A DNA stretch of 45,663 nucleotides from Acidimicrobiales bacterium (GTDB lineage Bacteria > Actinomycetota > Acidimicrobiia > Acidimicrobiales > Palsa-688), in assembly GCA_035533095.1 (NCBI GenBank), contig DATLUM010000044.1, positions 1 through 45,663 on the forward strand. The letters run 5' to 3'. A model generated the notes under the pieces. That model was not told the DNA's origin. It ran no database searches and saw only the letters and a program-made list of their open reading frames with translations. The position numbers were made by a program, and so were the translations under genes. Of the stretch, positions 1 through 26,678 are shown in pieces; the first letter of the stretch is position 1, and the number at the start of each line of letters is the position of its first letter.

Positions 1-116
1 AGGTCCTGAACGGCATCCACGAGCACACCGGAAATGCTCGCACAGCCCGTGCCGAACGATCCATACCGAGCGACTCGCAACGCACTCGGCCCCCCGCCAA
101 CGGCGCGAGAATCGGC
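1..116. repeat. 116-bp inverted repeat, left copy
   Basis: The reverse complement of this stretch is identical, by eye, to 3556-3671. Identity ends abruptly at position 116 and may continue to the left beyond the window. It carries, on the minus strand, the upstream region and the first eight codons (26 down to 1) of a second copy of the small DUF6966-like gene found at 3646-3906. The two copies face away from the intervening TA genes and IS110 element. Confidence 0.9.
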
Positions 117-307
117 GATCGGCGTCAAAGATCTCCGGCTACCCTGACCATTGTCCGGGCTCCCCGGTGGGCCAGCCGCCATCTCGGCGGAAGTAGCCCC
201 GTTCGACTCGGGGCACCCGGACGACATCCGCCCCTGGCCGCCCAGACAACGACGCAACTGATTACAGCCCGATGGCTATGGGGCGCTCGTAGTCGGCGAT
301 CTGGGCC
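117..307. other. Intergenic stretch, no gene seen
   Basis: No convincing reading frame on either strand. Positions 281-300 (reverse complement) match 3914-3933 at 19 of 20 bases, so this stretch shares a second short motif with the DNA just downstream of the 3646-3906 gene. Confidence 0.5.
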
Positions 308-520
308 TTAGTCGCGGGACGCCTGAGGTCGAGCTTCCTCGACGATGACGACGAAGGTCTGGCCTCCAACCTCGACGCTGGCGTCGTTGCTTCCTAATCG
401 GGTCACACAGAGGTCCGTGGCGTCTCGAAGGAGAGGACCGTCACCGAGTCCGGCGATGATCTCAGTGATCACATCCTTTTCCGTGATTCCCATGCGCCCA
501 TAATGCTCCGACTCGGTCAT
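308..520 (-). CDS. Small hypothetical protein (70 aa)
   Basis: I do not recognise the family. From the ATG at 520 the protein is 70 residues. It has an amphipathic N-terminal half (TEKDVITEIIAGLGDG) followed by a beta-rich C-terminal half (ASVEVGGQTFVVIVEEA), and it has no signal peptide or membrane segment. An in-frame upstream extension runs through the toxin-antitoxin promoter region and into the antitoxin gene, so the internal ATG is the more credible start. The gene is transcribed away from the YefM/RelE pair. The composition of the C-terminal half resembles real protein, but existence and function are uncertain. Confidence 0.4.
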   Translation of the reverse strand: MTESEHYGRMGITEKDVITEIIAGLGDGPLLRDATDLCVTRLGSNDASVEVGGQTFVVIVEEARPQASRD

Positions 521-602
521 CCCTGGCAGCTTGTCGTCAAGATGTCGCCGACGCGAGATTCGATCACGAGCAGCTCCCGAGGCTGGCTCACGGAACCGAA
601 AG

Positions 603-663
603 TTGTACAGATCGTCGGCCCGGGGACGAGAAATATTGTACAACTCTGCTCCGATCTTGTACA
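603..663. promoter_or_regulatory. Three TTGTACA boxes upstream of the toxin-antitoxin pair
   Basis: TTGTACA occurs at 603-609, 636-642 (extended to TTGTACAA) and 657-663, each containing the palindrome TGTACA. The last one ends nine bases before the antitoxin ATG. The starts are 33 and 21 bp apart, close to three and two helical turns, so all boxes lie on one DNA face. Known for the family: YefM/Phd antitoxins repress their own operons through short palindromes. Assigning these boxes as the operator is inference. Confidence 0.6.
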
Positions 664-671
664 TTACTGTC

Positions 672-920
672 ATGTCCACGATGAACGTCAGCGAGGCCCG
701 AGAGAAGCTCGCCGAGGCCATTGACGCGGCTCAGTCTGAAGCGGTGGTCCTCGAACGCTACGGCCGGCCGGCCGCAGTGTTGGTGAGCATGGAGCGATAC
801 GAACAGCTCCTCGACGCGCTTGAAGAGGCCGAGGACATCACGGCGTTCGATGCGGCGATGGCCGAAGCAGGCGACAACATCCCCTGGGACAAGGTCAAAG
901 CCGACCTCGGCTGGTCGTGA
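672..920 (+). CDS. Type II antitoxin, Phd/YefM family
   Basis: An 82-residue protein starting MSTMNVSEAREKLAEAIDAA, which is the Phd/YefM N-terminal DNA-binding fold. It continues with VVLERYGRPAAVLVSMERYE, the typical second part of this fold, and an acidic toxin-wrapping C-terminus. Known role: it binds and neutralises the partner toxin and represses the operon. The ATG at 672 is chosen because the family motif begins right after it; an in-frame ATG at 681 is the alternative, and longer upstream in-frame sequence is not family-like. The stop codon overlaps the GTG start of the toxin (GTGA), so the pair is translationally coupled. Three TTGTACA boxes sit directly upstream. Confidence 0.88.
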   Translation: MSTMNVSEAREKLAEAIDAAQSEAVVLERYGRPAAVLVSMERYEQLLDALEEAEDITAFDAAMAEAGDNIPWDKVKADLGWS

Positions 921-1174
921 GTCGATATCGGGTCGAAGTCCGCCCAGCCGCGGTGCGAGCACTGCGCAAAATCGACCCGAAGACGCGGCCCCGCATCGAG
1001 GGGGCCATTGCCCTATTGGCGGAAGACCCTCGACCTCCAGCATCGCGGCCACTAACCGGCCGAGACGGATACCGAGTCCGAGTCGGTGACTACCGGATCA
1101 TCTACACGATCCACGATGACGTGCTCCTCATCGTGGTCGTCACACTCGGGCACCGCCGAGACGTGTACCGCTAG
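917..1174 (+). CDS. Type II toxin, RelE/ParE superfamily
   Basis: An 85-residue protein with the RelE layout: an N-terminal YRVEVRPAAVRALRKI segment, a central helix pair, then PLTGRDGYRVRVGDYRIIYT and a final beta strand ending LGHRRDVYR. The basic C-terminal residues, including GHRRDVY, are typical of RelE-type ribosome-dependent mRNA interferases. ParE-like gyrase inhibition cannot be excluded from sequence alone. It starts with GTG at 917, overlapping the antitoxin stop by three bases. Length is normal for the family and nothing looks broken, so the system is probably functional. Confidence 0.88.
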   Translation: MSRYRVEVRPAAVRALRKIDPKTRPRIEGAIALLAEDPRPPASRPLTGRDGYRVRVGDYRIIYTIHDDVLLIVVVTLGHRRDVYR

Positions 1175-1221
1175 CGCAGAACATCGAGCCGCTCTTCACA
1201 AGCTCGCCGATCAGACACCCA

Positions 1222-1398
1222 CTTGACAGATGCCGAATCGGCGTTCGGGAACACGTGCTGGAACCCACCCGAGCCCGCGGGCCGCGAGCATAATGTTCGG
1301 TGCTCCGTTGCTAGCGCTGACCGAGATTATGCGTCTACCGGAACGGCGCAGCGAGCCGCGGGCGGGCCACGCCGAACGCCGATTCGGCGTCTGTCAAG
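1222..1398. repeat. 177-bp imperfect palindrome, MITE-like
   Basis: The ends are 27-bp inverted repeats (1222-1248 and 1372-1398) matching at 26 of 27 positions and beginning CTTGACAG. Inner arms GCATAAT (1288-1294) and ATTATGC (1326-1332) are exactly concentric, both pairs centred on about 1310, with partly matching GC-rich arms in between. The whole element could fold into one long hairpin. No target-site duplication is visible. It fills most of the gap between the RelE toxin and the Fic gene, and no gene is seen in it. Confidence 0.7.
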
Positions 1399-1456
1399 GC
1401 GCAGCGCCATTCTCCTGCAGGAGCGCCGTACGGAATATTCGGCGTCCATGGATAGA

Positions 1457-1825
1457 TCAGCCGTGGCGACGACGCAGAACTTCGACCATCTCCGCTTCTA
1501 CGTCAACACCGGAGGCGGCTCTCACCAGGAGCGCCGCGAACTCGCGGTCATCGGGCGGCAGCAAAGCGGCACCGTCTTCGCCGTTGCGGTCCAAGATCCA
1601 CTTGGCGAGCAAGAAACCCGTCCTCTTGTTGCCCTCGCCGAACGCCTGTGCCTTGGCTACCCGATAAGCGACGACCGCCGCCGCGGTGATCGGGTCGTCA
1701 ATGCTGTCTAGGACCTCGAGAGCCCGTTGCAGCCGGTCGAACTCGTCGGGCTCGTCGAACCATTCATCGTCTTGGCGGGCGAGACGATTGAACGCGACAG
1801 CCAGTTCCAGGGTCGGCCGTATCAA
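1457..1825 (-). CDS. Fic/Doc-family toxin with altered motif
   Basis: A 122-residue death-on-curing/Fic fold protein. The active-site loop is at residues 60-69 and reads QAFGEGNKRT, where the family motif is HxFx(D/E)GNKRT. The catalytic histidine is therefore glutamine, while the phosphate-binding GNKR is intact. Doc-type proteins phosphorylate EF-Tu and Fic proteins AMPylate targets; without the histidine this copy may be inactive, or it may belong to a divergent subfamily. Translation would start at TTG 1825, overlapping the stop of the short upstream ORF by three bases, so the two are coupled. Length matches Doc (about 120-130 residues). Confidence 0.8.
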   Translation of the reverse strand: MIRPTLELAVAFNRLARQDDEWFDEPDEFDRLQRALEVLDSIDDPITAAAVVAYRVAKAQAFGEGNKRTGFLLAKWILDRNGEDGAALLPPDDREFAALLVRAASGVDVEAEMVEVLRRRHG

Positions 1826-1947
1826 TGGTCGTGGAGGTAAGCGAGCAGTTCCCGGTAGGTAACTACCTGCTCATCGAGCCAGGCACGCTCCTCCGAGGGC
1901 AGGTCCTCAAGGAGCTTCTCGGCCACGATGCGCTCGGCCTGACTCAC
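1822..1947 (-). CDS. Candidate 41-aa antitoxin for the Fic/Doc protein
   Basis: A very short frame immediately upstream of, and overlapping, the Fic gene. From GTG 1947 it encodes 41 residues starting MSQAERIVAEKLLEDLPSEE and ending YRELLAYLHDH. It is strongly helical, with alternating charged and hydrophobic residues, as expected for a toxin-binding peptide. A GGAGG lies just before the GTG but with only one base of spacing; an in-frame ATG at 1995 would add 16 residues. The family is not recognised. The antitoxin role is inferred from position and translational coupling only. Confidence 0.5.
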   Translation of the reverse strand: MSQAERIVAEKLLEDLPSEERAWLDEQVVTYRELLAYLHDH

Positions 1948-2169
1948 ACCTCCAGGATACCGAATCCTGCCGACACCGGCCTGGGCCCGGAACATTCTGA
2001 GTGTCCGAGTATCCCCGGTCCCAAGGACTCGAACCTTCCGAGATCGACACTCCTATGGTTGTCAAGGGGCAGTTTCTGCTGGCGCGGACACGACATGGAT
2101 GGGCCACTCCGGTGGGGAGGGCAAACTCTTATTAGGTCTCGCTAGCAGAGGGTGTTGCTCGGGGACGGC

Positions 2170-2224
2170 CGACGGGTCGATCGCAGGTCAGCCAGTGGCG
2201 ACAGCCGATTCGTGGGTCAGACCG
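2170..2224 (+). repeat. Left direct repeat flanking the IS110 transposase
   Basis: Aligns with 3421-3476 with about 11 differences in 56 columns and one gap. The best conserved blocks are the first 13 bases, CAGCCAG in the middle, and GGTCAGACCG at the end. It starts 17 bases downstream of the transposase stop. Confidence 0.75.
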
Positions 2225-2241
2225 TCCCCGAGAAGGGTGCT

Positions 2242-3291
2242 TCAGTCGGGCGTCCAGAGGAGGTGGTGGTAGACCTCGCGGGCGACGAAACGCTTCAGGC
2301 AGCGGATGATCTCGGGTTTGGTTTTGCCTTCTTTGAGGCGTCGTTCGACGTAGGCCTGGGTGGGTAGGTGGTGGCCCATGCGGCTGAACACGATCCGCCA
2401 GAGAGCGTGGTTGGCTTGGCGGTCACCGCCGGGGTTGAGCCGGTATCTGCCGGTGGTCTTGCCCGACCCGGCGGGGATCGGCGCGGCCCCGCAGAGATGC
2501 GCCCAGGCTGCCTCGGATCTCAGCCGGTCGGGGTGATCGCCGGCTGCGATGATCAGGATGGCGGCGACGTGCGGTCCGATTCCGTACGTCTCGAGGAGGC
2601 TGGGAGCTTGTAGTTCGATCAGCGGAAGCAGGAGCTGATCGAGGTAGTCGATCTGATCAGCCAGGAACTCAGCCCGACGTCCCAGTTCTCGCAAAGCGAT
2701 GCGGGTGGCGTATCCGACGGTGTCGCCGGGGCGGGGGCGCAGTCCGGCCAGCTCGGCCGGCAGACTGTCGGTGGAGTGACGTTCGAAGCGGGCGCGGAGG
2801 TCGTCGGGGCCAGTAACGACAAGGGATCTGGCCTGATTGATCGACCTGGTCCGCTCTCCTCGGGCGGAGCGTTTGGCCACCATCAACGCCCTGATCGCCT
2901 CGACCGTGTTGTCCCGGCCTCTCGGCGCCCCTTTGGCCTTGCCTGACAGCGCGGCGCGCGCTGCGCTCTCGGCGTCGAGAGGATCGGACTTGCCTGAGCG
3001 GTAGCGGGCCTGGCGATCGGAGCGGTCCACCTCCACCACCTTCACCCCGGCGGCCACCAAATGTCGGGTTAGGCCGGCACCGTAGCTGCCGGTACCTTCC
3101 ACCCCGACCAGGGCGACAGGTCCGAGGCTTTGCAGCCAGCTGAGGAGCCGGGCGTAGCCGGCCGGGGTGGTCGGGAAGCTCTGGGTGCCGAGCAGTCCGC
3201 CGATGTGGTTCAGCGCGGCGGCGACGTGGGCGTCGGCGTGGGTGTCCACACCGCCAGTGACGGTGGCTGTCTCTACGATGGTCAAGGCCAT
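2242..3291 (-). CDS. IS110-family transposase (DEDD recombinase)
   Basis: A 349-residue transposase. The N-terminal RuvC-like DEDD domain shows GGVDTHADAHVAA, VGVEGTGSYG and SGKSDPLDAESAARAAL, which carry the acidic metal ligands. The C-terminal transposase_20 domain contains GIGPHVAAILIIAAGD and PIPAGSGKTTGRYRLNPGG with the conserved serine. Both catalytic parts are intact and the length is normal, so the gene may be active. ATG 3291 is preferred; TTG 3300 is in frame upstream. The family cuts and rejoins DNA as a circular intermediate guided by a bridge RNA encoded in a non-coding end. Confidence 0.93.
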   Translation of the reverse strand: MALTIVETATVTGGVDTHADAHVAAALNHIGGLLGTQSFPTTPAGYARLLSWLQSLGPVALVGVEGTGSYGAGLTRHLVAAGVKVVEVDRSDRQARYRSGKSDPLDAESAARAALSGKAKGAPRGRDNTVEAIRALMVAKRSARGERTRSINQARSLVVTGPDDLRARFERHSTDSLPAELAGLRPRPGDTVGYATRIALRELGRRAEFLADQIDYLDQLLLPLIELQAPSLLETYGIGPHVAAILIIAAGDHPDRLRSEAAWAHLCGAAPIPAGSGKTTGRYRLNPGGDRQANHALWRIVFSRMGHHLPTQAYVERRLKEGKTKPEIIRCLKRFVAREVYHHLLWTPD

Positions 3292-3300
3292 CCCTTTCAA

Positions 3301-3420
3301 GGTTGAGGGGTGGAACGCACCCGCTGGCCGACCGATCCCTGTGAACCCCGACCTCTAGATCAGGACGGGCGGATCAGAACGGTGTCACCGGTGGATGCCG
3401 GGATATCCCTGGGTCCCGGT
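3301..3420 (-). other. Non-coding end of the IS110 element, possible bridge-RNA region
   Basis: About 120 bp without a gene between the transposase start and the right direct repeat. In IS110-group elements the bridge RNA is transcribed from the end upstream of the transposase, which is this side. No secondary structure was computed, so this is a positional inference only. Confidence 0.3.
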
Positions 3421-3476
3421 CGACGGATCGATCACAAGACAGCCAGCCGGCGTCAACCGGTTCGCAGGTCAGACCG
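3421..3476 (+). repeat. Right direct repeat flanking the IS110 transposase
   Basis: Partner of 2170-2224 in the same orientation, ending in the same GGTCAGACCG. The following 79 bp up to 3555 hold no gene. Confidence 0.75.
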
Positions 3477-3555
3477 AGACCCAGGACTCCCGACCATACG
3501 ACCCCACCAGCTGACTGATCGGGATGGTGGTCAGGAGCACCCCTTCATTCTCCAT

Positions 3556-3671
3556 GCCGATTCTCGCGCCGTTGGCGGGGGGCCGAGTGCGTTGCGAGTC
3601 GCTCGGTATGGATCGTTCGGCACGGGCTGTGCGAGCATTTCCGGTGTGCTCGTGGATGCCGTTCAGGACCT
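3556..3671. repeat. 116-bp inverted repeat, right copy
   Basis: Perfect reverse complement of 1-116. It spans 90 bp upstream of the 3646 start codon and the first nine codons of that gene. Identity stops sharply at 3556; the match to the right beyond 3671 cannot be tested because its partner leaves the window. Confidence 0.9.
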
Positions 3672-3906
3672 GGCTGACCACTTCCGAACGTATGGCGAAC
3701 CGGATCTCGCACGCGCCCTCGACGGACTCATCCAGGGGGCGCCCGACGGTCTCCCGCGGCGAGTCCTAGCGATGTTCACTCACGGGATGGGCGGGCTGCT
3801 GGACCGTCCGCTTTATTCGGGCGGACGGGTGAATGCTGAAGCGACCCAACGCCGGGACGACTTGGCTCATGTGATGTACGAAGCCGCGAAGGCCGAACTT
3901 CGATAG
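3646..3906 (+). CDS. DUF6966-like small protein
   Basis: An 86-residue cytosolic protein: an N-terminal helix DAVQDLADHFRTYGEPDLAR, a middle segment, then RVLAMFTHGMGGLLDRPLY and a C-terminal helix. The (F)xxGMG...D pattern after a helical N-terminus resembles DUF6966 proteins, whose function is unknown; family assignment is tentative. GTG 3646 is chosen because upstream in-frame sequence is not protein-like; GTG 3652 is also possible. Its start region lies in the 116-bp inverted repeat, so a second gene with the same promoter and N-terminus begins at position 26 on the minus strand and leaves the window. Confidence 0.55.
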   Translation: MLVDAVQDLADHFRTYGEPDLARALDGLIQGAPDGLPRRVLAMFTHGMGGLLDRPLYSGGRVNAEATQRRDDLAHVMYEAAKAELR

Positions 3907-3996
3907 AGCGCCTATCGCCGAGTACGAGCGCCCTCACCCCTCTGTTCAGTACCCTCTTGCGCCGGTGTTCTGCAGTACCTACGGCGACGGACCATC

Positions 3997-4266
3997 GTGG
4001 CGGACGTGGTGGATGACATGACGACTGGTGACGAGGGCGATGTCGAGACCGACGCTGATAGGGGAAAAGCGTGGTGGTTCTACCTGGGCTACGCGACCAT
4101 CGCAGCGGCCTTGGGGGTTGGTGCCTACTTGACGGCTGGAACCGTCCGAGTCGTCCTAATTATCCTGGCCGCCCTCTTTGCAGGCATCACGATTTGGTCC
4201 GTGTTGTTCATGACCGTGATTGAGTACGTGGCCCACGTGGGCAAGCAAGCACTGGGAAGAGATTGA
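3997..4266 (+). CDS. Small two-span membrane protein
   Basis: An 89-residue protein with an acidic soluble N-terminus (about 25 residues) followed by two hydrophobic helices: WWFYLGYATIAAALGVGAYL, and one around VVLIILAALFAGITIWSVLF. The tail is short and basic. No family is recognised and no enzyme motif is visible. The start shown is GTG 3997; ATG 4018 is a shorter option that keeps both membrane spans. It lies 90 bp after the DUF6966-like gene in the same direction. It may be an accessory cassette gene. Confidence 0.5.
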   Translation: MADVVDDMTTGDEGDVETDADRGKAWWFYLGYATIAAALGVGAYLTAGTVRVVLIILAALFAGITIWSVLFMTVIEYVAHVGKQALGRD

Positions 4267-4347
4267 ATCCCTAACGCCGAATCCCGGGCGTATGCACTAC
4301 CTCTGGCTCCGGTACTCGGCGAGGCGGGATGGTTCATTCTGCATCGG

Positions 4348-4881
4348 TTAGGTGTCGGAGACCGGGGAACGTTCGGCAGCTCGACGCACCCGCTCGCTCC
4401 GGTCCGACGCCAGCCGTTCGCGGAGCGCGTGGTGGGAGGAGTCGCGTGCTAACACCTTGCGGAACTCGGTGGTCGCCCTCGGGTCGCTCACCAGCCGAAT
4501 CAGCACGTCTTCGTGAACGCCGGACCTTTGCGATAGGGCTACGCCCGCCTCGAACGCCTTGTGGTCGTCTCGGACGTGAAGCCTCGGCAGGATGAGCTCG
4601 GGCGCGGAGTTGAGTTCCTCCGGGGGCATCGAGGGGTTCCGGATGAGAGCGATCAGGCGGGCGCTGTCATTCCAGGTACGGAGTTCCCGCGGCATCAGCG
4701 CCACCAGCACATCAGGGGGAGTTAGCGGGTGTCCTGCAACTTGGACCACTACGAAGTCATAGGGGCACTGGGCCAACGCTCGAAGATGTTCCGGAGTAAC
4801 CCCTTCCGAGGCTACGAAGTCGAGGTAGTCCTTCGGAGAGTGGAACGTCGGAAGGTCCGCCACGACGCCCGATTCTTTCAT
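4348..4881 (-). CDS. Helical-repeat (LRV-like) hypothetical protein
   Basis: A 177-residue soluble protein without signal or membrane segments. It contains repeated short helix pairs, for example HLRALAQCPYDFVVVQVAGH, RLIALIRNPSMPPEEL and VLIRLVSDPRATTEFRKVLA, with recurrent (N/H/D)P turns. This resembles leucine-rich-variant or HEAT-like alpha-solenoid proteins, which usually serve as binding scaffolds. No catalytic motif is seen. It starts at ATG 4881 and converges on the small membrane protein gene with an 80-bp gap. Function unknown. Confidence 0.55.
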   Translation of the reverse strand: MKESGVVADLPTFHSPKDYLDFVASEGVTPEHLRALAQCPYDFVVVQVAGHPLTPPDVLVALMPRELRTWNDSARLIALIRNPSMPPEELNSAPELILPRLHVRDDHKAFEAGVALSQRSGVHEDVLIRLVSDPRATTEFRKVLARDSSHHALRERLASDRSERVRRAAERSPVSDT

Positions 4882-5135
4882 CTGCGCTCGCCGTCATGCC
4901 GAGTGGGGCCAGCGGGGACCCGCTCCGAACGACGGCTCGGGTCGCAGCCGTAAGCGACCTGGACGAGACAGAACGAGCGACCAGAACGCTCGCAACGTCG
5001 GCGTGCGCGATCCGTGCGCGATCCGTGCGCGAACGGGCCGGAATTTGGCGACACCCGCCGGCACCCCCCGAACGCGAAAGTGCTGGTCAGGGGCCTAATT
5101 GCCCGGGAACACCTGTTCGGAAAGCTCGTCTGGGC
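4882..5135. other. Gene-free stretch before the tRNA-Glu fragment
   Basis: No reading frame with protein-like composition was seen. It contains an 11-bp tandem repeat, GTGCGCGATCC, two and a half copies at 5003-5032. It may be the remains of an integrase end, but I cannot show this. The stretch 5182-5569 after the tRNA fragment is also without a convincing gene. Confidence 0.4.
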
Positions 5136-5181
5136 CGCCCTTTCAAGGCGGCAGCACGGGTTCGAATCCCGTTGGGGGTGC
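5136..5181 (+). pseudogene. Truncated 3' half of tRNA-Glu(UUC), att-like
   Basis: Contains the anticodon loop CTTTCAA (anticodon TTC), the 3' anticodon stem GGCGG, the T-arm ACGGGTTCGAATCCCGT and the acceptor 3' strand TGGGGGT plus discriminator G. No D-arm or acceptor 5' strand precedes it, so it is not a functional tRNA. The same 46 bp recur at 9062-9107 with one mismatch. Integrative elements that use tRNA genes duplicate exactly this anticodon-to-3'-end portion. Confidence 0.88.
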
Positions 5182-5569
5182 TGGGTTTTTCCGTTCGCGA
5201 CGTCATTCGCGACCTGAACGTGACCTAACTCTGCAGGCGTGACTTCGCGTCCTCTGATCTGCACGACTGCCGCCGCCTTGTCTGCCCAAACTGGCCATCC
5301 CTGTCTTGCCCCCCCGTCGGCAGCCAACCCGAGAGAAATCGAAATGACCCCTTGACTTCCCTAGAAGCATCTTGCGGAGCTGGGTGAGGCCGACGTCAGC
5401 GATTCTTGTCCAGTCCCGTCGATCCGCACTCAGAAACGGCAGGAATCGCCAAAGACTCGGTCAGCCCGGAGGTGATGTGTCGCCCTCGACCTTGCACGAT
5501 TCGGCAGTCTTGTCTGACGGGCGGGAGGCGGGGAGATACGGTGCAACGGTTACGTAGAAGGAGGGGAAC

Positions 5570-5965
5570 ATGGCCGATTTCCCAAGCGTCACTCATGTGG
5601 CGCTCACTGTCACCGATCTCGAACGCAGTCGACCCTGGTACGAAAAGTTGTTCGGGACCAAGCCGGTGATCGACGAGGACACCGGTCCCTTCCATCACGT
5701 CGTGTGGCTTCTCGGGAGCCAAACCCTGGTAGGCATCCATCAGTTCCCTGATCTCCATGGAAGCGAACCCTTTGACGAGCGGCGGCCTGGGCTCGATCAT
5801 CTCGCCTTCGCCTGCCCCAACCGGTCCGAACTGGAACAGTGGAAGGCAAGGTTGGATGACCTCGGCATCGAAAACGGCGGCATCGTCGATGCGCCATACG
5901 GCTCGGGTCTGTCGTTCCGCGATCCTGACAACATCGCACTGGAGTTCTTCGCGCCACCAGGGTGA
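5570..5965 (+). CDS. VOC-superfamily (glyoxalase-like) protein
   Basis: A 131-residue single-chain vicinal-oxygen-chelate protein with two beta-alpha-beta-beta-beta modules. Module one starts THVALTVTDLERSRPWYEKL and module two GLDHLAFACP. The usual four metal-ligand positions are filled by H9, H57, H77 and E125, so a divalent-metal site is likely intact. The family covers glyoxalases, extradiol dioxygenases and resistance proteins; the substrate cannot be told. ATG 5570 follows a clear GGAGGGG ribosome-binding site. It lies inside the tRNA-Glu-bounded segment as a single gene. Confidence 0.85.
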   Translation: MADFPSVTHVALTVTDLERSRPWYEKLFGTKPVIDEDTGPFHHVVWLLGSQTLVGIHQFPDLHGSEPFDERRPGLDHLAFACPNRSELEQWKARLDDLGIENGGIVDAPYGSGLSFRDPDNIALEFFAPPG

Positions 5966-6190
5966 CCGTCCGGGGGCATTCGCGATCCGTGCGAGTACAG
6001 CACAACGCCAGGGCAAGGCGAGGCGCTCAAAGGCGGCCGGCGCGGAATCGGCAGTGGGGCATCTGACGGCGTCGTTGGCTACGGCTCGCTAGAAGCGACA
6101 ACGGCTCCAAGGTGCCGCTCCGGAGGCGGAGCGAGCAGAGGAACGACGTTCGCGCTCATCCACGGACGCCGGATTCGGCTCGCTCCCGGA

Positions 6191-6226
6191 TTGACAAAGG
6201 ATACTTTGCAAAGATATCTTTGCGTT
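6191..6226 (+). promoter_or_regulatory. Promoter with 16-bp palindromic operator
   Basis: A consensus TTGACA (-35) at 6191-6196 is followed after 18 bases by TATCTT (6215-6220) as -10. The expected transcription start is then at or next to the A of ATG 6227, giving a leaderless message. A perfect 16-bp palindrome, GCAAAGATATCTTTGC (6208-6223), covers the spacer and -10. Binding of the encoded HTH protein here would block its own promoter; this is inference. Confidence 0.7.
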
Positions 6227-6787
6227 ATGGGAGAGACGATACCGGGCACGGCAAGCGGCGTCGAGGGTGTCCGGGCGTTGGCCCACCCGTTGCGCTTAGA
6301 GTTGCTTGATGTATTGCGTTTCGGCGGCCCGTCGACCGCAACGCTGCTTGCAGGTCGTTTGAACGAGTCGAGCGGTGCGACCAGCTATCACCTGCGGCAA
6401 CTCGCCCGGTACGGCTTCGTCGAGGAAGTCGAGCAAAGCGGCGGGCGTGAGCGCTGGTGGCGTTACCGGGAGCGAAAGGTCTCAGTCCCCGCAGGCGCCG
6501 ACGACGAGACCGGCGGTCGAGCAGTAGCCGCGGCACTCCTCACCCATGAGGCGCAGGCACTCGACCGGTTCCTGAGCGAACAGCCGCGCTCTGACGACTG
6601 GGACGATGCTGCGTTTCTCCAGTCGCGCTCGCTATGCCTCACCTCGAAAGAACTCGACGCTCTGCGTTGTGCGATCGAGAGTCTGCTCGCGCCACTCCGA
6701 CGTGCCGACGCCGAAGACGCCCCCGTAGACGCGTTACCGGTGAGGGTCTTCGCGTTCGGTTTCCCGGTCACTGTGGCGGGGTCATGA
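6227..6787 (+). CDS. ArsR-like winged-helix repressor
   Basis: A 186-residue regulator. Residues about 10-90 form an HTH_20/ArsR winged helix: GVRALAHPLRLELLDVLRFG, then the recognition region SSGATSYHLRQLARYGFVEE and the wing GGRERWWRYR. The C-terminal half is helical with a single cysteine and no obvious metal-binding cluster, so the ligand is unknown. ATG 6227 is preferred over the upstream TTG 6191, because that TTG is part of the -35 box. The stop overlaps the start of the S41-like gene (ATGA), so the two are one transcript. Confidence 0.85.
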   Translation: MGETIPGTASGVEGVRALAHPLRLELLDVLRFGGPSTATLLAGRLNESSGATSYHLRQLARYGFVEEVEQSGGRERWWRYRERKVSVPAGADDETGGRAVAAALLTHEAQALDRFLSEQPRSDDWDDAAFLQSRSLCLTSKELDALRCAIESLLAPLRRADAEDAPVDALPVRVFAFGFPVTVAGS

Positions 6788-7647
6788 GCACTCCGGACGG
6801 ATCGGCGGTGCTGGTCAACACGGTGATCGAGCGACTCACTGCGTCGTACATCTTCCCGGACCGCTCAGCTCGCGCCGCCAGCCTGCTACAAGCCCGGCTC
6901 GCCGACGGCGCATACGATCTCCCCGCCGGTTCAGTCCTCTGCGAGCGTCTCTCCGCTGACCTCTTCGAAGCGTGCGCCGACAAGCACTTGCGGCTGCTCT
7001 GGCACGATTCGGTCGAGTCAAGCCGCGATGAGACCGAACTCGTCGACGCGCTACATGAGACTTTCCGCCGCGAGAACCACGGCATCCACAGCGTCGAGCT
7101 ACTGCCTGGAAATGTGGGCCTGATCGCCCTCACGATCATCCCACCTGCTGCTACTGGCGCAACGAAGCTTGCGGCCATGATGCAACTGGTACAAGACACC
7201 GACGCGCTCATTCTCGACCTGCGAGAAACGCGAGGGGGCGCCCCCGACGGTGGCGCCTTCCTGTCCAGCTTCTTCTTCCCTGACGGCGACGTCCACCTCA
7301 GCGACATCATCGAAGGCCCGAACGGTCCACCCCGCCAATACTGGACCTATGCCCACCTACCCGCGCCACGCTACCTCGACCGGGCGACCATCGTCGGCGA
7401 GACAACACGCGGCGGCGCGCACCCCTCAGAGGTCGTGTCAATCGCTGAACAGATCGAGCTGCGCCTACCCGTCGCCCGGTCCCACAACCCCATCACCGGC
7501 ACCAACTGGGAGGCCGTCGGCGTCCAACCGGACCATTACGCGCCGGCGACAACCGCAGTCACCGTCGCCCACCGCCTTGCTCTAGAAGCCAGCGCCAACA
7601 ACGACGAAACCTCTGAGTCCAGCCGAGCCGCCCGACGCCACCTCTAG
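6784..7647 (+). pseudogene. S41-family protease relic lacking the catalytic-serine segment
   Basis: A 287-residue protein related to the IRBP/tricorn-like S41 family. The N-terminal domain (1-110), the LILDLRETRGGAPDGGAFLS region and the FFFPDGDVHLSDIIEGPNGP region are well preserved, as is the later VGETTRGGAHP stretch. In family members about 25 residues, including the nucleophile serine in a TFSGGE-like motif, separate the RYLDR and ATIVGETTRGG segments. Here they are joined directly at residues 200/201 (base 7384), in frame. The protein should therefore be catalytically dead, or be a regulatory or binding homologue. It is coupled by a four-base overlap to the upstream repressor. Confidence 0.7.
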
Positions 7648-7766
7648 CCCCTCGAACTCGCCCGTCGAGCGGGATGATCCCAGTAACGAGAGCCTCACCC
7701 ACACCCAACCGCTGGGCTGGGGTTGTCGACATTTGCCGCTCGCTGTATCGCCCCACCCAAAAGTTA

Positions 7767-8306
7767 CTAGCGGTTGCGGACCGACCGATCCCGGGTCCGA
7801 TCCCACCACGATGCGATCCGGGTGGTCAGACGATATAAGGGCCCGAGGGCCAGAAGGTGGGGGTGGGGATGGGAGACGATCACCGACTCGGCGGCGTGCA
7901 TCTTGGCTCCCAGTTCGTCGAGTTGGGCCTGATCGAGCGCGTCGCGCAACGCTGGTAGGAGTTCGCTCTCGCAGCGCGCCAAGTGCTCCTCGAATACGTC
8001 GAGCAGCTTGGTGACCAGCTCGGGCATGTCGGGCGAGTTGATCTTCCTCCGCTCCGTGAGGACCACGAGATGCTCCATGGAGCGGTACTCGTATCGAAGT
8101 AGATCAGCTAGGTGCGTACCGCCGAGTCGGCGTCGCTTCACGAGCGGGTAGACGAAGCTTCGCTCGACGGCCACGTGCGCGGACATCAACTTCACAAACT
8201 CCAGCCACGCCGCCCGTCGGTCGGCGTCGGGGTCGCGGACCTGCGCGAAGTGCTCTTGGAGGTTCCGGTGCTCCCGGACCAACACGTCGAGCGCGCTCTC
8301 GCTCAC
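7767..8306 (-). CDS. Hemerythrin-like HHE-domain protein
   Basis: A 179-residue helical protein from GTG 8306. The four-helix-bundle pattern is visible: LVREHRNLQEHF (helix 1), LMSAHVAVERSFVYP (helix 2), EYRSMEHLVVL (helix 3) and FEEHLARCESELLP (helix 4). These supply the H/E residues for a di-iron site. Proteins of this kind bind oxygen or nitric oxide or sense redox state; the actual role is unknown. Longer in-frame starts upstream (to 8456) add low-complexity, non-family sequence and are rejected. It is oriented opposite to the other genes of the island. Confidence 0.8.
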   Translation of the reverse strand: MSESALDVLVREHRNLQEHFAQVRDPDADRRAAWLEFVKLMSAHVAVERSFVYPLVKRRRLGGTHLADLLRYEYRSMEHLVVLTERRKINSPDMPELVTKLLDVFEEHLARCESELLPALRDALDQAQLDELGAKMHAAESVIVSHPHPHLLALGPLYRLTTRIASWWDRTRDRSVRNR

Positions 8307-8457
8307 ACGCGACAAGGTAGAGCGTCCAACGGTCACACCCTGTGGGCGGGCGGTGACCGACGATGCGAGCCGACTCGGCGACCTTGAGCACGCAGCGGCA
8401 TGCAATCCCAACGACACGGGGCCGCGGGAGTCGGGCCCGTGCTGTGGGCGCCACAAG

Positions 8458-8763
8458 CTAGGAGCGTCTACCTTGCCAGGCTTCCAGACGCGATCGAATC
8501 CCCCTCCGAGGCGAAGTCTGGGATTTGCGACCGTCCTCAGAACGAGGGCCGCTGAGCCCTACGGGGGCCACAGCAGCGGCCTTGACTGAAGTCGGGTCCG
8601 CCGACAAGTGTTCCCAAACAATGGTCCATCCTGCGCCGTTCATCCGGAAGTCCTCTGTGTGAGTTGCACAGAGAGGGAGGGGTCCGGGAAGGGAATCTCG
8701 GATTACGGATGCCGCTGCGCGGCGGTCGCAGTCGTCAACGCGACACTTGCCGGACGGGTTCAT
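8458..8763 (-). CDS. Small Cys/His protein, possible zinc finger
   Basis: A 101-residue protein from ATG 8763, preceded by a GGAAGGA ribosome-binding site with normal spacing. The first 50 residues contain a compact CxxxxC...CxxH arrangement: C7, C12, C32 and H35 (KCRVDDCDRRAAA and PLCATHTEDF), followed by MNGAGWTIVWE. This looks like a small metal-binding finger, common in hypothetical actinobacterial proteins. The remaining half is basic and low in complexity. No function can be assigned. Upstream in-frame sequence to 9165 crosses the tRNA-Glu fragment and is not protein-like. Confidence 0.55.
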   Translation of the reverse strand: MNPSGKCRVDDCDRRAAASVIRDSLPGPLPLCATHTEDFRMNGAGWTIVWEHLSADPTSVKAAAVAPVGLSGPRSEDGRKSQTSPRRGIRSRLEAWQGRRS

Positions 8764-9061
8764 ACCCCATCCTTCCTCGTTCGCTCGAAGGCCGGCTCCC
8801 GATCTGGGAAACCCCGGTACGAACTTGTTGGCCCCCAGCGTAGGCGGCTTCGTGCGGCCACGCGGCGGCTGGGTGCAGAGACGAACCGGTTGACGCCGGC
8901 CCGGAAGGCAAGCAGCCGACGCGGCACCTGCAGCCCTCCATCCCCCTGAAGACCAGAGCCGAGTACGACCTGCTCCCCTCCGCGGTACGGACGCAACCTC
9001 TGCCGTCAGCGCTCCACCAGGCTTTTTGGAGTTGCATCCCTGGTATTCGAAGCTGCTCAGT
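8764..9061. other. Gene-free stretch before the right tRNA-Glu fragment
   Basis: Several open frames exist on both strands, but all have the composition of GC-rich non-coding DNA and none carries a recognisable motif. No RNA gene or clear terminator is seen. Confidence 0.45.
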
Positions 9062-9109
9062 CGCCCTTTCAAGGCGGCAGCACGGGCTCGAATCCCGTTG
9101 GGGGTGCCA
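9062..9109 (+). pseudogene. Truncated 3' half of tRNA-Glu(UUC), second copy
   Basis: Same 46 bp as 5136-5181 except T to C at 9087 in the T-loop region, and here the encoded CCA end (9107-9109) is also present. It again begins inside the anticodon stem with no 5' half. It forms the right boundary of the accessory region; core-type genes follow. Confidence 0.88.
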
Positions 9110-9509
9110 GCCCGCGGGACGTCAGCCATGCCTTCGCTCGTCTCGGTGAGGCCTGCGCGAGCCATGCGTCTTGAACCACCTCAGCCAGCTCGTCGCGGGT
9201 CATCTCGCCGAGCCTGCTGGCCCTCACCAGAACAGACGGATGACCGCTGAAGTGAGGGGTTGTGAAGAACGGTGACGACGGATCCTGGATGAGCGCCTCC
9301 TTGTCGGCCTCCGAGGCGACCCAGAAGATGATCACATCCTGGTAGCGCTCGCCGGTGTCGGGGTCGACGGCGTCGGGGCGTGGATTGCGGAAGTAGACAA
9401 ACGACTTCCCCCCCACCTGGTACACCGGGCTCTCTGTCCGGCCGTGGTGGACGACGGTGACGTGGGGCATGCCCAGAGCGAGCTCGTGGACGTCGTCCAC
9501 CCCTGCCAT
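9069..9509 (-). CDS. MmcQ/YjbR-family protein
   Basis: A 146-residue YjbR-like protein (CyaY-like fold, DNA-binding-like surface). It begins MAGVDDVHELALGMPHVTVV and contains VYQVGGKSFVYFRNPRP and LVRASRLGEMTRDELAEVVQ, the conserved blocks of the family. ATG 9509 is chosen because the family starts here; an in-frame ATG at 9572 adds non-family residues. The last residues (TGFEPVLPP) are read from the antisense strand of the tRNA-Glu fragment, so its original 3' end has probably been replaced by the integration event. Function is not known. Confidence 0.8.
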   Translation of the reverse strand: MAGVDDVHELALGMPHVTVVHHGRTESPVYQVGGKSFVYFRNPRPDAVDPDTGERYQDVIIFWVASEADKEALIQDPSSPFFTTPHFSGHPSVLVRASRLGEMTRDELAEVVQDAWLAQASPRRAKAWLTSRGLAPPTGFEPVLPP

Positions 9510-9611
9510 CTTGGGTCGTTTTGGCACCGCGAGAAGGCTAGGTCCCGGCGGGGCATAGACTTCGCGGGTCATTCAGGGACTCAGATCTGAAATCGGGTAA
9601 GGAATCTTGGA

Positions 9612-16918: not shown

Positions 16919-16993
16919 GGTCCTGTGGTGCAGTTTGGAGTGCACGCCGGCCTGTCAAGCCGGAGGCCGCGGGTTCAAATCCCGTCAGGACCG
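16919..16993 (+). tRNA. tRNA-Asp (anticodon GTC)
   Basis: Acceptor strands GGTCCTG and CAGGACC pair fully. The anticodon arm is CCGGC-CTGTCAA-GCCGG with anticodon GTC. The T-arm is GCGGGTTCAAATCCCGT. Discriminator base G, CCA not encoded. It is one base upstream of tRNA-Phe. Confidence 0.95.
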
Positions 16994-16994
16994 C

Positions 16995-17067
16995 GGTCGG
17001 ATAGCTCAGCTGGTAGAGCGCGCGCCTGAAAAGCGCGAGGTCCGCGGATCGACACCGCGTCCGACCA
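16995..17067 (+). tRNA. tRNA-Phe (anticodon GAA)
   Basis: Acceptor GGTCGGA pairs with TCCGACC. The D-arm is GCTCAGCTGGTAGAGC and the anticodon arm CGCGC-CTGAAAA-GCGCG with anticodon GAA. The T-loop region reads GCGGATCGACACCGC, somewhat unusual. Its 3' part is repeated in degenerate form at 17690-17734. Confidence 0.95.
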
Positions 17068-17071
17068 CTCG

Positions 17072-24607: not shown

Positions 24608-25596
24608 CGACCGGCAACTGGGAGCTGTGGCGGGCGCTGGCCGCTGTCGCCGACAATCCGGCGGACGCGCGGACAGCCGCCGGCGCGCTAGGGATACCGG
24701 TGCCCGACCCGGCCGAGCACACCGAAGTGTTCGTCCTCAACTGCCCGCCGTACGCGTCGATCCATCTCGGCGCGGAGGGAGGGATCGGCGGCGAGGGGGC
24801 CGACCGGGTCGCCGGCTTCTGGAGGGCCATCGGCCTCGACCCGCCGGCCGAACCGGATCACCTCTCGTCTCTCCTCGCCCTCTACGCGCATCTAGGAGAG
24901 GCCGGCGCCAGCGTCCGCCATGCCGTGACGGCAGAGGCACTAGCCCACGCCCGCGCCGTGCTGCTCTGGGAACACCTGTGGTCGTGGGTGCCCAACTGGC
25001 TCGACTCGGTCACTGATCTCGGCACCGAGACGGTCGGCGGCTGGGCCGAGCTGACGTGTGCTGCCCTCCAGCGTGAGGCACGCTCCCAGCCCCGAGGTCA
25101 CCTACTCCCCGCCGCCTTGAGGGACGCACCCCCAGCCGTCGAGCCCGGATGCCACACCGAGGACCTGCTCGACGCACTGATCAGTCCGCTCCGAAGCGGC
25201 TTCGTCCTGACCCGCACCAGTCTCGCCCGGATCGCCCAACAAGCCGGAGCCGGGTACCGCCTGGGCGAGAGGCGCTTCGCACTGCGGGCCATGCTCGAGC
25301 AGGACCGCCGAGCCATCCTCACCGGGCTAGGCACCGAAGCCGGCCGCTGGTCAGCCCGGCAGGCCCGGCGTCCCACCGACGATCCAGCCACCAAGTGGTG
25401 GGCGCGCCGGTCGGCCCACACCGCCGCCATACTTGCCGGCGACTCCGATGACGGAACCACACCCGCGTTGGCCCAGGACTACAGGAACGAGTCCATCCCG
25501 ACCACCGGCCCGTTCAGCGCCGTGCTGGCCGTCGACCCACGGAATGGCGCTGCGCCGCGGTTGAAGACTCCACCGTCGGCAGCCACAAGCCAGTAG
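24604..25596 (+). CDS. TorD/DmsD-like molybdoenzyme chaperone, long form
   Basis: A 330-residue protein whose first 230 residues are all-helical and TorD-like: NWELWRALAAVADNPADART, LNCPPYASIHLGAEGGIGGE and EHLWSWVPNWLDSV. Chaperones of this family insert the molybdenum cofactor and quality-check the dedicated enzyme. GTG 24604 overlaps the upstream stop (GTGA). The last 39 codons are antisense to the repeat protein gene and look non-native, so the 3' end may have been extended by rearrangement. It is the last gene of the operon. Confidence 0.8.
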   Translation: MTTGNWELWRALAAVADNPADARTAAGALGIPVPDPAEHTEVFVLNCPPYASIHLGAEGGIGGEGADRVAGFWRAIGLDPPAEPDHLSSLLALYAHLGEAGASVRHAVTAEALAHARAVLLWEHLWSWVPNWLDSVTDLGTETVGGWAELTCAALQREARSQPRGHLLPAALRDAPPAVEPGCHTEDLLDALISPLRSGFVLTRTSLARIAQQAGAGYRLGERRFALRAMLEQDRRAILTGLGTEAGRWSARQARRPTDDPATKWWARRSAHTAAILAGDSDDGTTPALAQDYRNESIPTTGPFSAVLAVDPRNGAAPRLKTPPSAATSQ

Positions 25597-26678
25597 CCGT
25601 CTCCGCTCGGGGTCGGGATCATACCGACCACCGGCGCGTTGAGATGCATCCCGGCCAGCGACCCGTAGAACGCGGCGCCCCCGAAGGCGAACACACCACC
25701 ACCGGCCGCCACGAGCGAGTAGCCGTCACCGGTCGGGGTAGAGGCCATGCCCACGACCGGGGCGTTCAGATTCCTTCCGGCAAGCGACCCGTAGAACGCA
25801 GCGCCCCCGAAAGTGAACACCCCACCATCCGCCGCGACCAGCCAGTAGCCACCAGACACCGGATCCTCGACCATGCCCACCACCGGTGCGTTCAGATGCC
25901 TACCCGCCAGAGACCCGTAGAACGCAACGCCCCCGAAAGCGAACACCCCACCATCCGCCGCGACCAGCCAGTAGCCACCGGACACCGGATCCTCGACCAT
26001 GCCCACCACCGGTGCGTTCAGATGCCTACCCGCCAGAGACCCGTAGAACGCAGCGCTCCCGAAAGTGAACACCCCACCATCGGCTCCCGCCAGCAGGTAG
26101 CTCACGGGGTTGGCGGGTGTCTGCACTTTCAAGCTGTCGAGCGAGTACCAACCCTCGGACGGGTATTTCGTCCAACCGGTCTCGCAATCATCGCCTGTCG
26201 TGGACTCTTCGGCTGCCAATGGGCGATATCGGACGCGGAAGAGCATCGCCCCGCTCGCGAGTTGCCGGACATCGGTACGCACGAGAAGCGCTTCACCATC
26301 AAGCTTGGCCTCGCCGACCGCATGCGCGGTGATTGCTCCTTCTGGGTAGGTCATCCCACAGTTGCCGTTCGAGGGCTGACCCGGTATGTGCTGCCACACC
26401 CGGCACCAATCTGTCACTACCAACCTCTGCGCACCGACATTGAAGATGAGTGTGCCGGACCCCCGTCCTGAAGCGTCTGTCGTGATAGCGAGGAAGTACC
26501 CCGGCACGGAAGGTCCGTTGGCCTGAGCCACGACTTCGAGATTGGGGTCGCTGCGGCCGTTGCACATCTCTGGCAGCTCTGCAGCGTTCGCGGATCTCAA
26601 TACAGTTGGTGCCACCGGAATCAGCCCTAATGCGATGGCCATCATCGTGGCGATGACTGCGATGACCTTGATCCTCAT
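25479..26678 (-). CDS. Secreted repeat protein of GGVFAFGG type
   Basis: A 399-residue exported protein. The N-terminus is a signal peptide (MRIKVIAVIATMMAIALGLI... with an ANAAELP-like cleavage site). Residues about 37-190 form a cysteine-containing domain of unknown family. The rest is a run of 42-residue repeats built around YWLVAADGGVFAFGGAAFYG followed by GSLAGRHLNAPVVGM. Such repeats occur in secreted proteins of Acidimicrobiia and probably fold into beta-propeller blades. ATG 26678 follows GGAGG. Its end overlaps the convergent TorD-like gene by 118 bp. Function unknown, probably surface or extracellular. Confidence 0.8.
   Translation of the reverse strand: MRIKVIAVIATMMAIALGLIPVAPTVLRSANAAELPEMCNGRSDPNLEVVAQANGPSVPGYFLAITTDASGRGSGTLIFNVGAQRLVVTDWCRVWQHIPGQPSNGNCGMTYPEGAITAHAVGEAKLDGEALLVRTDVRQLASGAMLFRVRYRPLAAEESTTGDDCETGWTKYPSEGWYSLDSLKVQTPANPVSYLLAGADGGVFTFGSAAFYGSLAGRHLNAPVVGMVEDPVSGGYWLVAADGGVFAFGGVAFYGSLAGRHLNAPVVGMVEDPVSGGYWLVAADGGVFTFGGAAFYGSLAGRNLNAPVVGMASTPTGDGYSLVAAGGGVFAFGGAAFYGSLAGMHLNAPVVGMIPTPSGDGYWLVAADGGVFNRGAAPFRGSTASTALNGPVVGMDSFL
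25600..26098 (-). repeat. 126-bp tandem coding repeats
   Basis: Successive 126-bp units inside the secreted protein gene, for example the same boundary at 25872 and 25998. The two units ending there are nearly identical at DNA level, while the outer ones have diverged. This points to recent duplication of internal blades. Confidence 0.8.

Follow-up and report, generated by a model that had tools for sequence, protein, structure and literature searches.

Probable accretion of mobile elements at the only tRNA-Glu(UUC) gene found in an Acidimicrobiales genome

What does it mean that the 3' half of one tRNA gene occurs twice, 3.9 kb apart, in a single contig? The question is raised by the window studied here, a stretch of 45,663 nucleotides that makes up the entire contig C44 (DATLUM010000044.1) of an Acidimicrobiales bacterium of the Palsa-688 lineage (assembly GCA_035533095.1, genome G000); sequence to the left of its position 1 is not directly readable. 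Insertion at tRNA genes is a well-known route by which bacteria gain foreign genes, and this branch of hosts has been little studied. We conclude that the locus is very probably one of accretion at the only tRNA-Glu(UUC) gene found, holding a newest element and a remnant that resembles a cis-mobilizable element (CIME). The stacked, tRNA-targeted integration proposed by an earlier sequence-only reading of the window is supported by tRNA scars, two types of attR arm, an integrase at the intact gene and repeated occupation of the same site in relatives.

The repeat itself is a 46-bp direct repeat at 5136-5181 and 9062-9107, which represents the 3' half of tRNA-Glu(UUC) from the anticodon stem to just beyond the discriminator base. 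The two copies agree at 45 of 46 positions, which confirms the one-mismatch repeat that the earlier reading had seen around the 3.9 kb. A 23-base part of the tRNA pattern, allowing up to 3 mismatches, occurred at two places in the window (maximum in 100 shuffles, 0). Under the same tolerance the 45-base pattern occurred at three places in the whole 3.44-Mb, 142-contig assembly, namely both copies and an intact gene on contig C137; the pattern written backwards occurred at none. The copies and the adjoining flank gene are as follows.

5135..5183, + strand: copy 1, tRNA-Glu(UUC) 3' half, putative attR of the newest element; the older remnant is bounded here on its left side
9062..9109, + strand: copy 2, tRNA-Glu(UUC) 3' half with CCA encoded, outer boundary with the chromosome
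9069..9572, - strand: YjbR-like flank gene (PF04237), final codons extending into copy 2; a homologue lies 4.8 kb downstream of the G014 scar

Only one intact tRNA-Glu(UUC) gene was found in the assembly, at C137:3474-3547(-), 3.5 kb from the contig end. Forty-nine base pairs of copy 1 (5135-5183) are identical to C137:3472-3520 within that gene, and the identity ends at the anticodon stem. Between the gene and the contig end are genes for a 113-aa protein, an AbiEii nucleotidyltransferase, a tyrosine integrase, an HTH_17 excisionase-like protein and a 111-aa protein. The integrase has 417 aa and points toward the tRNA (L027:885-2138, PF00589). PADLOC gave AbiEii-like matches for the nucleotidyltransferase and nothing for the other six proteins scanned. 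This stretch of C137 is the attL side of an integrated element. With the queries used, C44 contained no integrase, excisionase or relaxase match above chance. The sequence-only reading had expected the true gene to the left and had suggested looking for an intact tRNA-Glu together with a tyrosine recombinase; both were found on C137, the gene in the right orientation near that contig's end with the integrase between gene and end, although the join of C137 to C44 is itself inferred. The downstream flank of the gene is a mobile element and not unrelated DNA. In the mechanism we propose, a tyrosine integrase would recombine two identical halves that reach from anticodon stem to acceptor, one in the gene and one borne by the element, restoring the gene at attL and leaving a 3'-half scar at attR.

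On its other side, the C137 gene is separated by a luciferase-like monooxygenase and two amidohydrolases (L027 3581-7490) from a gene at 7794-9047, whose homologue lies within 0.2 kb of the tRNA in 9 of the 11 relatives' loci that hold one. The 3581-7490 stretch is possibly another insertion, upstream of the tRNA.

The window up to copy 1 would form the other end of the element at C137. Its features are the following.

1..5136, unstranded: right-hand part of the newest element, the left part presumably being C137:1-3473 (integrase, excisionase-like gene, AbiEii) across the assembly gap
654..1174, + strand: Phd/YefM antitoxin and ParE toxin pair, cargo (PF02604, PF05016)
1457..1825, - strand: Fic/Doc-family protein, cargo (PF02661)
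2242..3300, - strand: IS110-family transposase (PF01548, PF02371)
4990..5135, + strand: inner arm of attR by homology to G001 and G014, with a possible arm-type motif CTGGTCAG at 5083

The 188 bp at 4990-5177, which end inside copy 1, are 89% identical to the attR of an element in G001 (L155), a genome from another genus of the family, and the DNA of the Fic region (1433-1999) is 87% identical to the same element. The G001 scar is one G shorter and ends in an encoded CCA. The arm at 5011-5181 is also 79% identical to the scar of G014 (L068), so that homologous arms, at 79-89%, are seen in other genera. The attL of G014 stands at an intact tRNA-Glu gene and resembles C137 in its integrase (67-69% identity), excisionase-like protein (77%), AbiEii (64%) and 113-aa protein (65%). 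The G014 element also encodes a 926-aa TrwC (MobF) relaxase, and its homologous attL and attR are likewise split between two contigs of one genome. By this homology, copy 1 with its left arm appears to be the right end (attR) of the element family present at C137, and an integrative mobilizable element (IME) probably has its right end in window 1-5136. Taken with C137, this part has a site-specific integrase of its own (on C137, with none in the C44 part) and att direct repeats at a tRNA 3' end (the 49-bp identity between intact gene and copy 1). C137 and C44 would then be the two ends of one IME, with a MobF relaxase in the assembly gap.

The Fic-family protein at 1457-1825(-) has a glutamine at the start of its motif, as does its G001 relative. 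Fic/Doc motifs usually start with histidine.

The 3.9-kb piece between the copies has different contents and ends in a different arm.

5187..5285, - strand: possible integrase C-terminus stub directed at copy 1 (nucleotide match, tblastx, reading frame)
5570..5965, + strand: glyoxalase-fold protein, remnant cargo (PF00903)
6191..6787, + strand: ArsR-like winged-helix regulator, remnant cargo (PF12840)
6784..7647, + strand: S41/IRBP-like protein with an apparent internal deletion (PF03572)
7767..8456, - strand: hemerythrin-domain protein, remnant cargo (PF01814)
8894..9061, + strand: inner arm of a second, different attR type, with matches on the left side of scars in G018, G004 (its second) and G023

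The two copies have dissimilar left arms, that of copy 2 resembling the arms of G018 (77 bp, 77%), the second scar of G004 (88 bp, 74%) and G023 (32 bp, 94%). Just right of copy 1, the 27 bases at 5208-5234 match the integrase-tail region that adjoins the G027 scar at 26 positions (E 1.6e-5); tblastx of 5285-5187 gave 48% over 33 aa, and the reading frame resembles the G027 integrase tail. HMMER --max detected no integrase in the 3.9 kb, the best E value being 1.1. Aligned with interphotoreceptor retinoid-binding protein (IRBP) repeats, the S41 protein forms two blocks, and the 15 to 24 residues between them, a segment that presumably holds the active serine of S41 peptidases, are skipped relative to three of the four repeats. 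This protein had no match beyond its own genome at E 1e-12 (1 of 61 genomes). The four proteins of the piece had no match at that threshold in the relatives' loci compared, the whole-genome search having covered S41 alone. The synteny of 5136-9107 across relatives that would have spoken for a resident chromosomal segment was therefore not found, in the 61 genomes for S41 and in the compared loci for all four proteins.

The 3.9-kb piece has the look of an element that belonged to a different att type and has since decayed. It keeps an attL and an attR (copy 1 and copy 2), and no integrase, excisionase or TrwC relaxase match above chance was obtained from 5182-9061 with the queries used, other relaxase families being covered only by Pfam on the main open reading frames (ORFs). 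Because no recombinase of its own is detectable, we infer a CIME-like remnant rather than an autonomous island. On this view an older element would have been stripped of its genes for recombination and transfer while retaining both att sites, and could still be carried along with the newer one. Since the newer element adjoins the intact gene, it probably entered there, pushing the older one outward.

A related element in the same genome is seen from end to end. On C100, an element lies between tRNA-Ala(UGC) and an exact 49-bp repeat of the 3' half of that tRNA, 9.1 kb apart. Its integrase is 50% identical to that of C137, its excisionase-like protein 83% and its 111-aa protein 77%, and its TrwC relaxase is 76% identical to the G014 relaxase. 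Pfam searches of six ORFs of the element (integrase, excisionase-like, relaxase and three others) named no type IV secretion system family. In the same genome, a gene for an integrase of the same HMM family (L086, G000:C100, 1508-2794) overlaps tRNA-Gly(CCC) at 2748-2819, which is encoded on the other strand, and may mark a further integration site. Contigs C100, C47, C105, C40 and C97 of G000 also encode TrwC-like relaxases with 34-40% identity to the G014 relaxase, which suggests several mobilizable elements in one 3.4-Mb genome.

The ends of the tRNA sequences differ between the two copies. CCA is encoded at copy 2, and CT stands at the intact C137 gene and at copy 1, a difference that mirrors the two ends of the C100 element, where attL reads CT and attR reads CCA after the common core. 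In the family, all eight intact genes with an integrase match within 1.5 kb end in CT (a hand count; the G027 integrase piece overlaps the next scar), and genes with no integrase within that distance end in CT, CG or CC. CCA as a universal native 3' end was not upheld, one of the five loci with adjacent Glu and Asp genes encoding it (G045), and CCA adjoins the integrase in three of the five named Glu(UUC) loci described below. The G001 scar, although it ends in CCA, was scored as non-CCA in this survey as one G is missing. We use the CT/CCA difference as supporting evidence within the family only.

A short motif, CTGGTCAG, may mark the arms. At copy 1 it stands 52 bp to the left, and at the intact C137 gene (attL) 11 bp to the right. 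Among the collected sites it was present on the same strand right of 3 of 34 intact genes, left of 5 of 28 scars and right of 4 of 28 scars, and on the opposite strand at 2, 3 and 0, respectively; the 28 scars include a cross-match to tRNA-Asp (L138:10723). The background was 144 in 20,000 random 150-mers on one strand. Spacing was similar across sites, with four of the five left-of-scar occurrences at 52-55 bp and six of the seven right-hand ones at 10-13 bp. The motif was picked after the site sequences had been inspected, which makes the enrichment post hoc, and it is a possible integrase arm site.

In relatives, too, this tRNA gene is accompanied by scars of this kind, by attR arms and by integrases, in line with the earlier reading. 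The tRNA pattern matched in 59 of 61 genomes. A 3'-half-only match occurred in 14 of the 32 family genomes (our own included) and in 8 of the 29 others, as counted by hand from the table; in a few cases, G005 and G001:C182 among them, the likeness is to the tRNA-Glu(CUC) gene instead. Among 20 loci with related integrases, taken from named Acidimicrobiaceae or 'Actinomycetes' metagenome assemblies, all five with integrases at least 72% identical over at least 213 residues lie within 0.5 kb of tRNA-Glu(UUC). The L191 integrase, at 71% over just 35 residues, adjoins tRNA-Glu(CUC). The other 14 (45-62%) comprise six by tRNA-Gly, -Leu or -Asn, two by a tRNA-Glu 3'-half match and six with no tRNA nearby. 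These records, taken by themselves, would make the host probably acidimicrobial.

Occupation of the site is also visible in the order of the neighboring tRNA genes, which in the window are represented by one pair.

16919..17068, + strand: tRNA-Asp(GUC) and tRNA-Phe(GAA), 7.8 kb right of copy 2

The genes for tRNA-Glu, -Asp and -Phe are adjacent in five fetched loci (G031, G044, G045, G053 and G055), and in nine genomes (G005, G018, G019, G032, G036, G040, G041, G048 and G052) Glu and Asp lie 1-38 kb apart on one contig, two of which (G018 and G041) have a scar in between. Several family contigs break off at tRNA-Glu itself or within a few kb on its downstream side, which would be expected of a site that is variable and repetitive. 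A putative SdhB gene, named from the ORF alone, is the neighbor of tRNA-Asp in the window; of 29 Asp-Phe loci compared, five share this arrangement (G014, G007, G011, G012 and G022), and in G020 the distance to tRNA-Asp is about 6 kb. YjbR was considered as a general neighbor of the empty site and proved unusable family-wide: 6 of 61 genomes have it, and G000 and G014 are the only ones in which a tRNA-Glu scar shares its contig. Farther along the window, 25493-26107 matched the end of G014:C34 (L144) in several overlapping alignments, which suggests a repetitive gene.

Could the two contigs belong to different elements, possibly from co-binned strains, with C44 being the tail of another stack? 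The assembly gap leaves room for this, the first 300 bases of the two contigs have nothing in common, and contamination is estimated at 2.03%. We consider it very improbable nonetheless, as a single tRNA-Glu(UUC) gene was found in the genome and shares 49 identical base pairs with copy 1, CTGGTCAG is present both in the C137 attL (+11) and left of copy 1 (-52), and the homologous ends of the G014 element also fell on two contigs of one genome. If the contigs are joined, they could instead form one unit, a single island reaching from the intact tRNA to copy 2, in which copy 1 is an internal duplicated or captured att site and the 3.9 kb, with no remaining integrase, is ordinary cargo. Copy 1, however, is preceded by a complete attR arm of the kind found in G001 and G014, and the arm of copy 2 is of the type in G018, G004 and G023; because the arms differ in type, two different element ends are present. 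The possible integrase tail just after copy 1 also argues against a single island, which we regard as very improbable.

A further alternative is that the copies are functional or pseudo-tRNA genes that arose by duplication and are not att sites. ARAGORN called tRNA-Glu over both copies (5109-5181 and 9036-9109), and copy 1 passed Rfam at 32.2 bits, the one copy called there. When random DNA was placed upstream, however, tRNA calls still arose in 151 of 1000 trials for copy 1 (15%) and 73 of 1000 for copy 2 (7%), and in a second control in 58 and 16 of 300, so the calls are weak evidence of a 5' half and were rejected as evidence for genes. Across 27 collected scars, one of which lay at a contig end with a single upstream base, six were called against 3.3 expected from the sum of per-scar controls. 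A tRNA-like 5' mimic in attP was considered and dropped, the excess over chance not being clear. The earlier statement that neither copy has a 5' half stands. As identity to the intact gene stops at the anticodon stem, and integrases of the matching family sit at that gene, duplicated tRNA genes are extremely improbable here.

Several observations weigh against accretion of a newer IME beside a CIME-like remnant. No relaxase was found in C137:1-3473 or C44 with the queries used, and one is present in the related G014 and C100 elements; a search of the whole genome gave eight matches, of which the best (C100, 76%) lies in the tRNA-Ala element and the others reach at most 40%. No contig spans C137 to C44, and nothing is shared within the first 300 bases of each. 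Moreover, C44:1-116 is an exact inverted copy of 3556-3671, and this contig end may be a fold-back assembly artefact. Copy 2, like most collected sites, is without CTGGTCAG, and its arm lies 92 bp from the core versus about 209-217 bp in G018, G004 and G023. The integrase stub amounts to 27 bp at the nucleotide level, base composition differs only mildly (64% versus 67% G+C), and CCA is no general mark of native ends.

Accretion of integrative and conjugative elements (ICEs), IMEs and CIMEs at one tRNA site, with CIMEs keeping only att sites, is described in PMC5704250, and accretion at a Streptomyces tRNA-Arg in PMC9513070. As far as those accounts go, the present locus shares with them tandem elements at a tRNA 3' end, att-only remnants and direct-repeat flanks, and differs in lineage, in target gene and in that the newer element adjoins the intact tRNA. 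The part of PMC5704250 that deals with relaxases states that MobF was absent from all canonical IMEs known at the time and that Actinobacteria had yielded just one; MobF IMEs were later reported in Mesorhizobium (PMC8627217). The elements here resemble the latter, as described there, in their tRNA target, excisionase-like gene and, in the G014 and C100 elements, MobF relaxase, the C100 copy being att-bounded and 9.1 kb long, but are actinobacterial. The survey section of PMC3218068 lists no actinomycete ICEs (AICEs) outside Actinomycetales, Acidimicrobidae included; AICEs as presented there have a tyrosine integrase, an excisionase, a tRNA 3'-end target and known tandem insertions, whereas relatives of the element here carry a TrwC relaxase. 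The available text of PMC11389934 holds nothing further on this host group, and a limited search of the open-access literature, including acidimicrobial tRNA islands and MobF IMEs since 2018, returned no title on the present system.

A bolder and rather unlikely extension would make the tRNA-Glu(UUC) junction a standing capture site across the family, at which each integration swaps a CCA-encoding 3' end for a CCA-less one borne by the element and leaves a mosaic tRNA gene dependent on the CCA-adding enzyme. The newest element, with its AbiEii-type nucleotidyltransferase beside that tRNA, would be predicted still to excise together with the 3.9-kb remnant via copy 2 and to spread its cargo.

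The locus is a new example of a known phenomenon, the accretion of elements at tRNA hotspots, here with a remnant that is CIME-like, and leaves the general picture of tRNA-targeted islands unchanged. It places a busy integration hotspot in mostly uncultured actinobacteria, with MobF mobilizable elements as its probable drivers, and it indicates that tRNA half scars and arm types may serve as markers of insertion order in fragmented metagenome assemblies.

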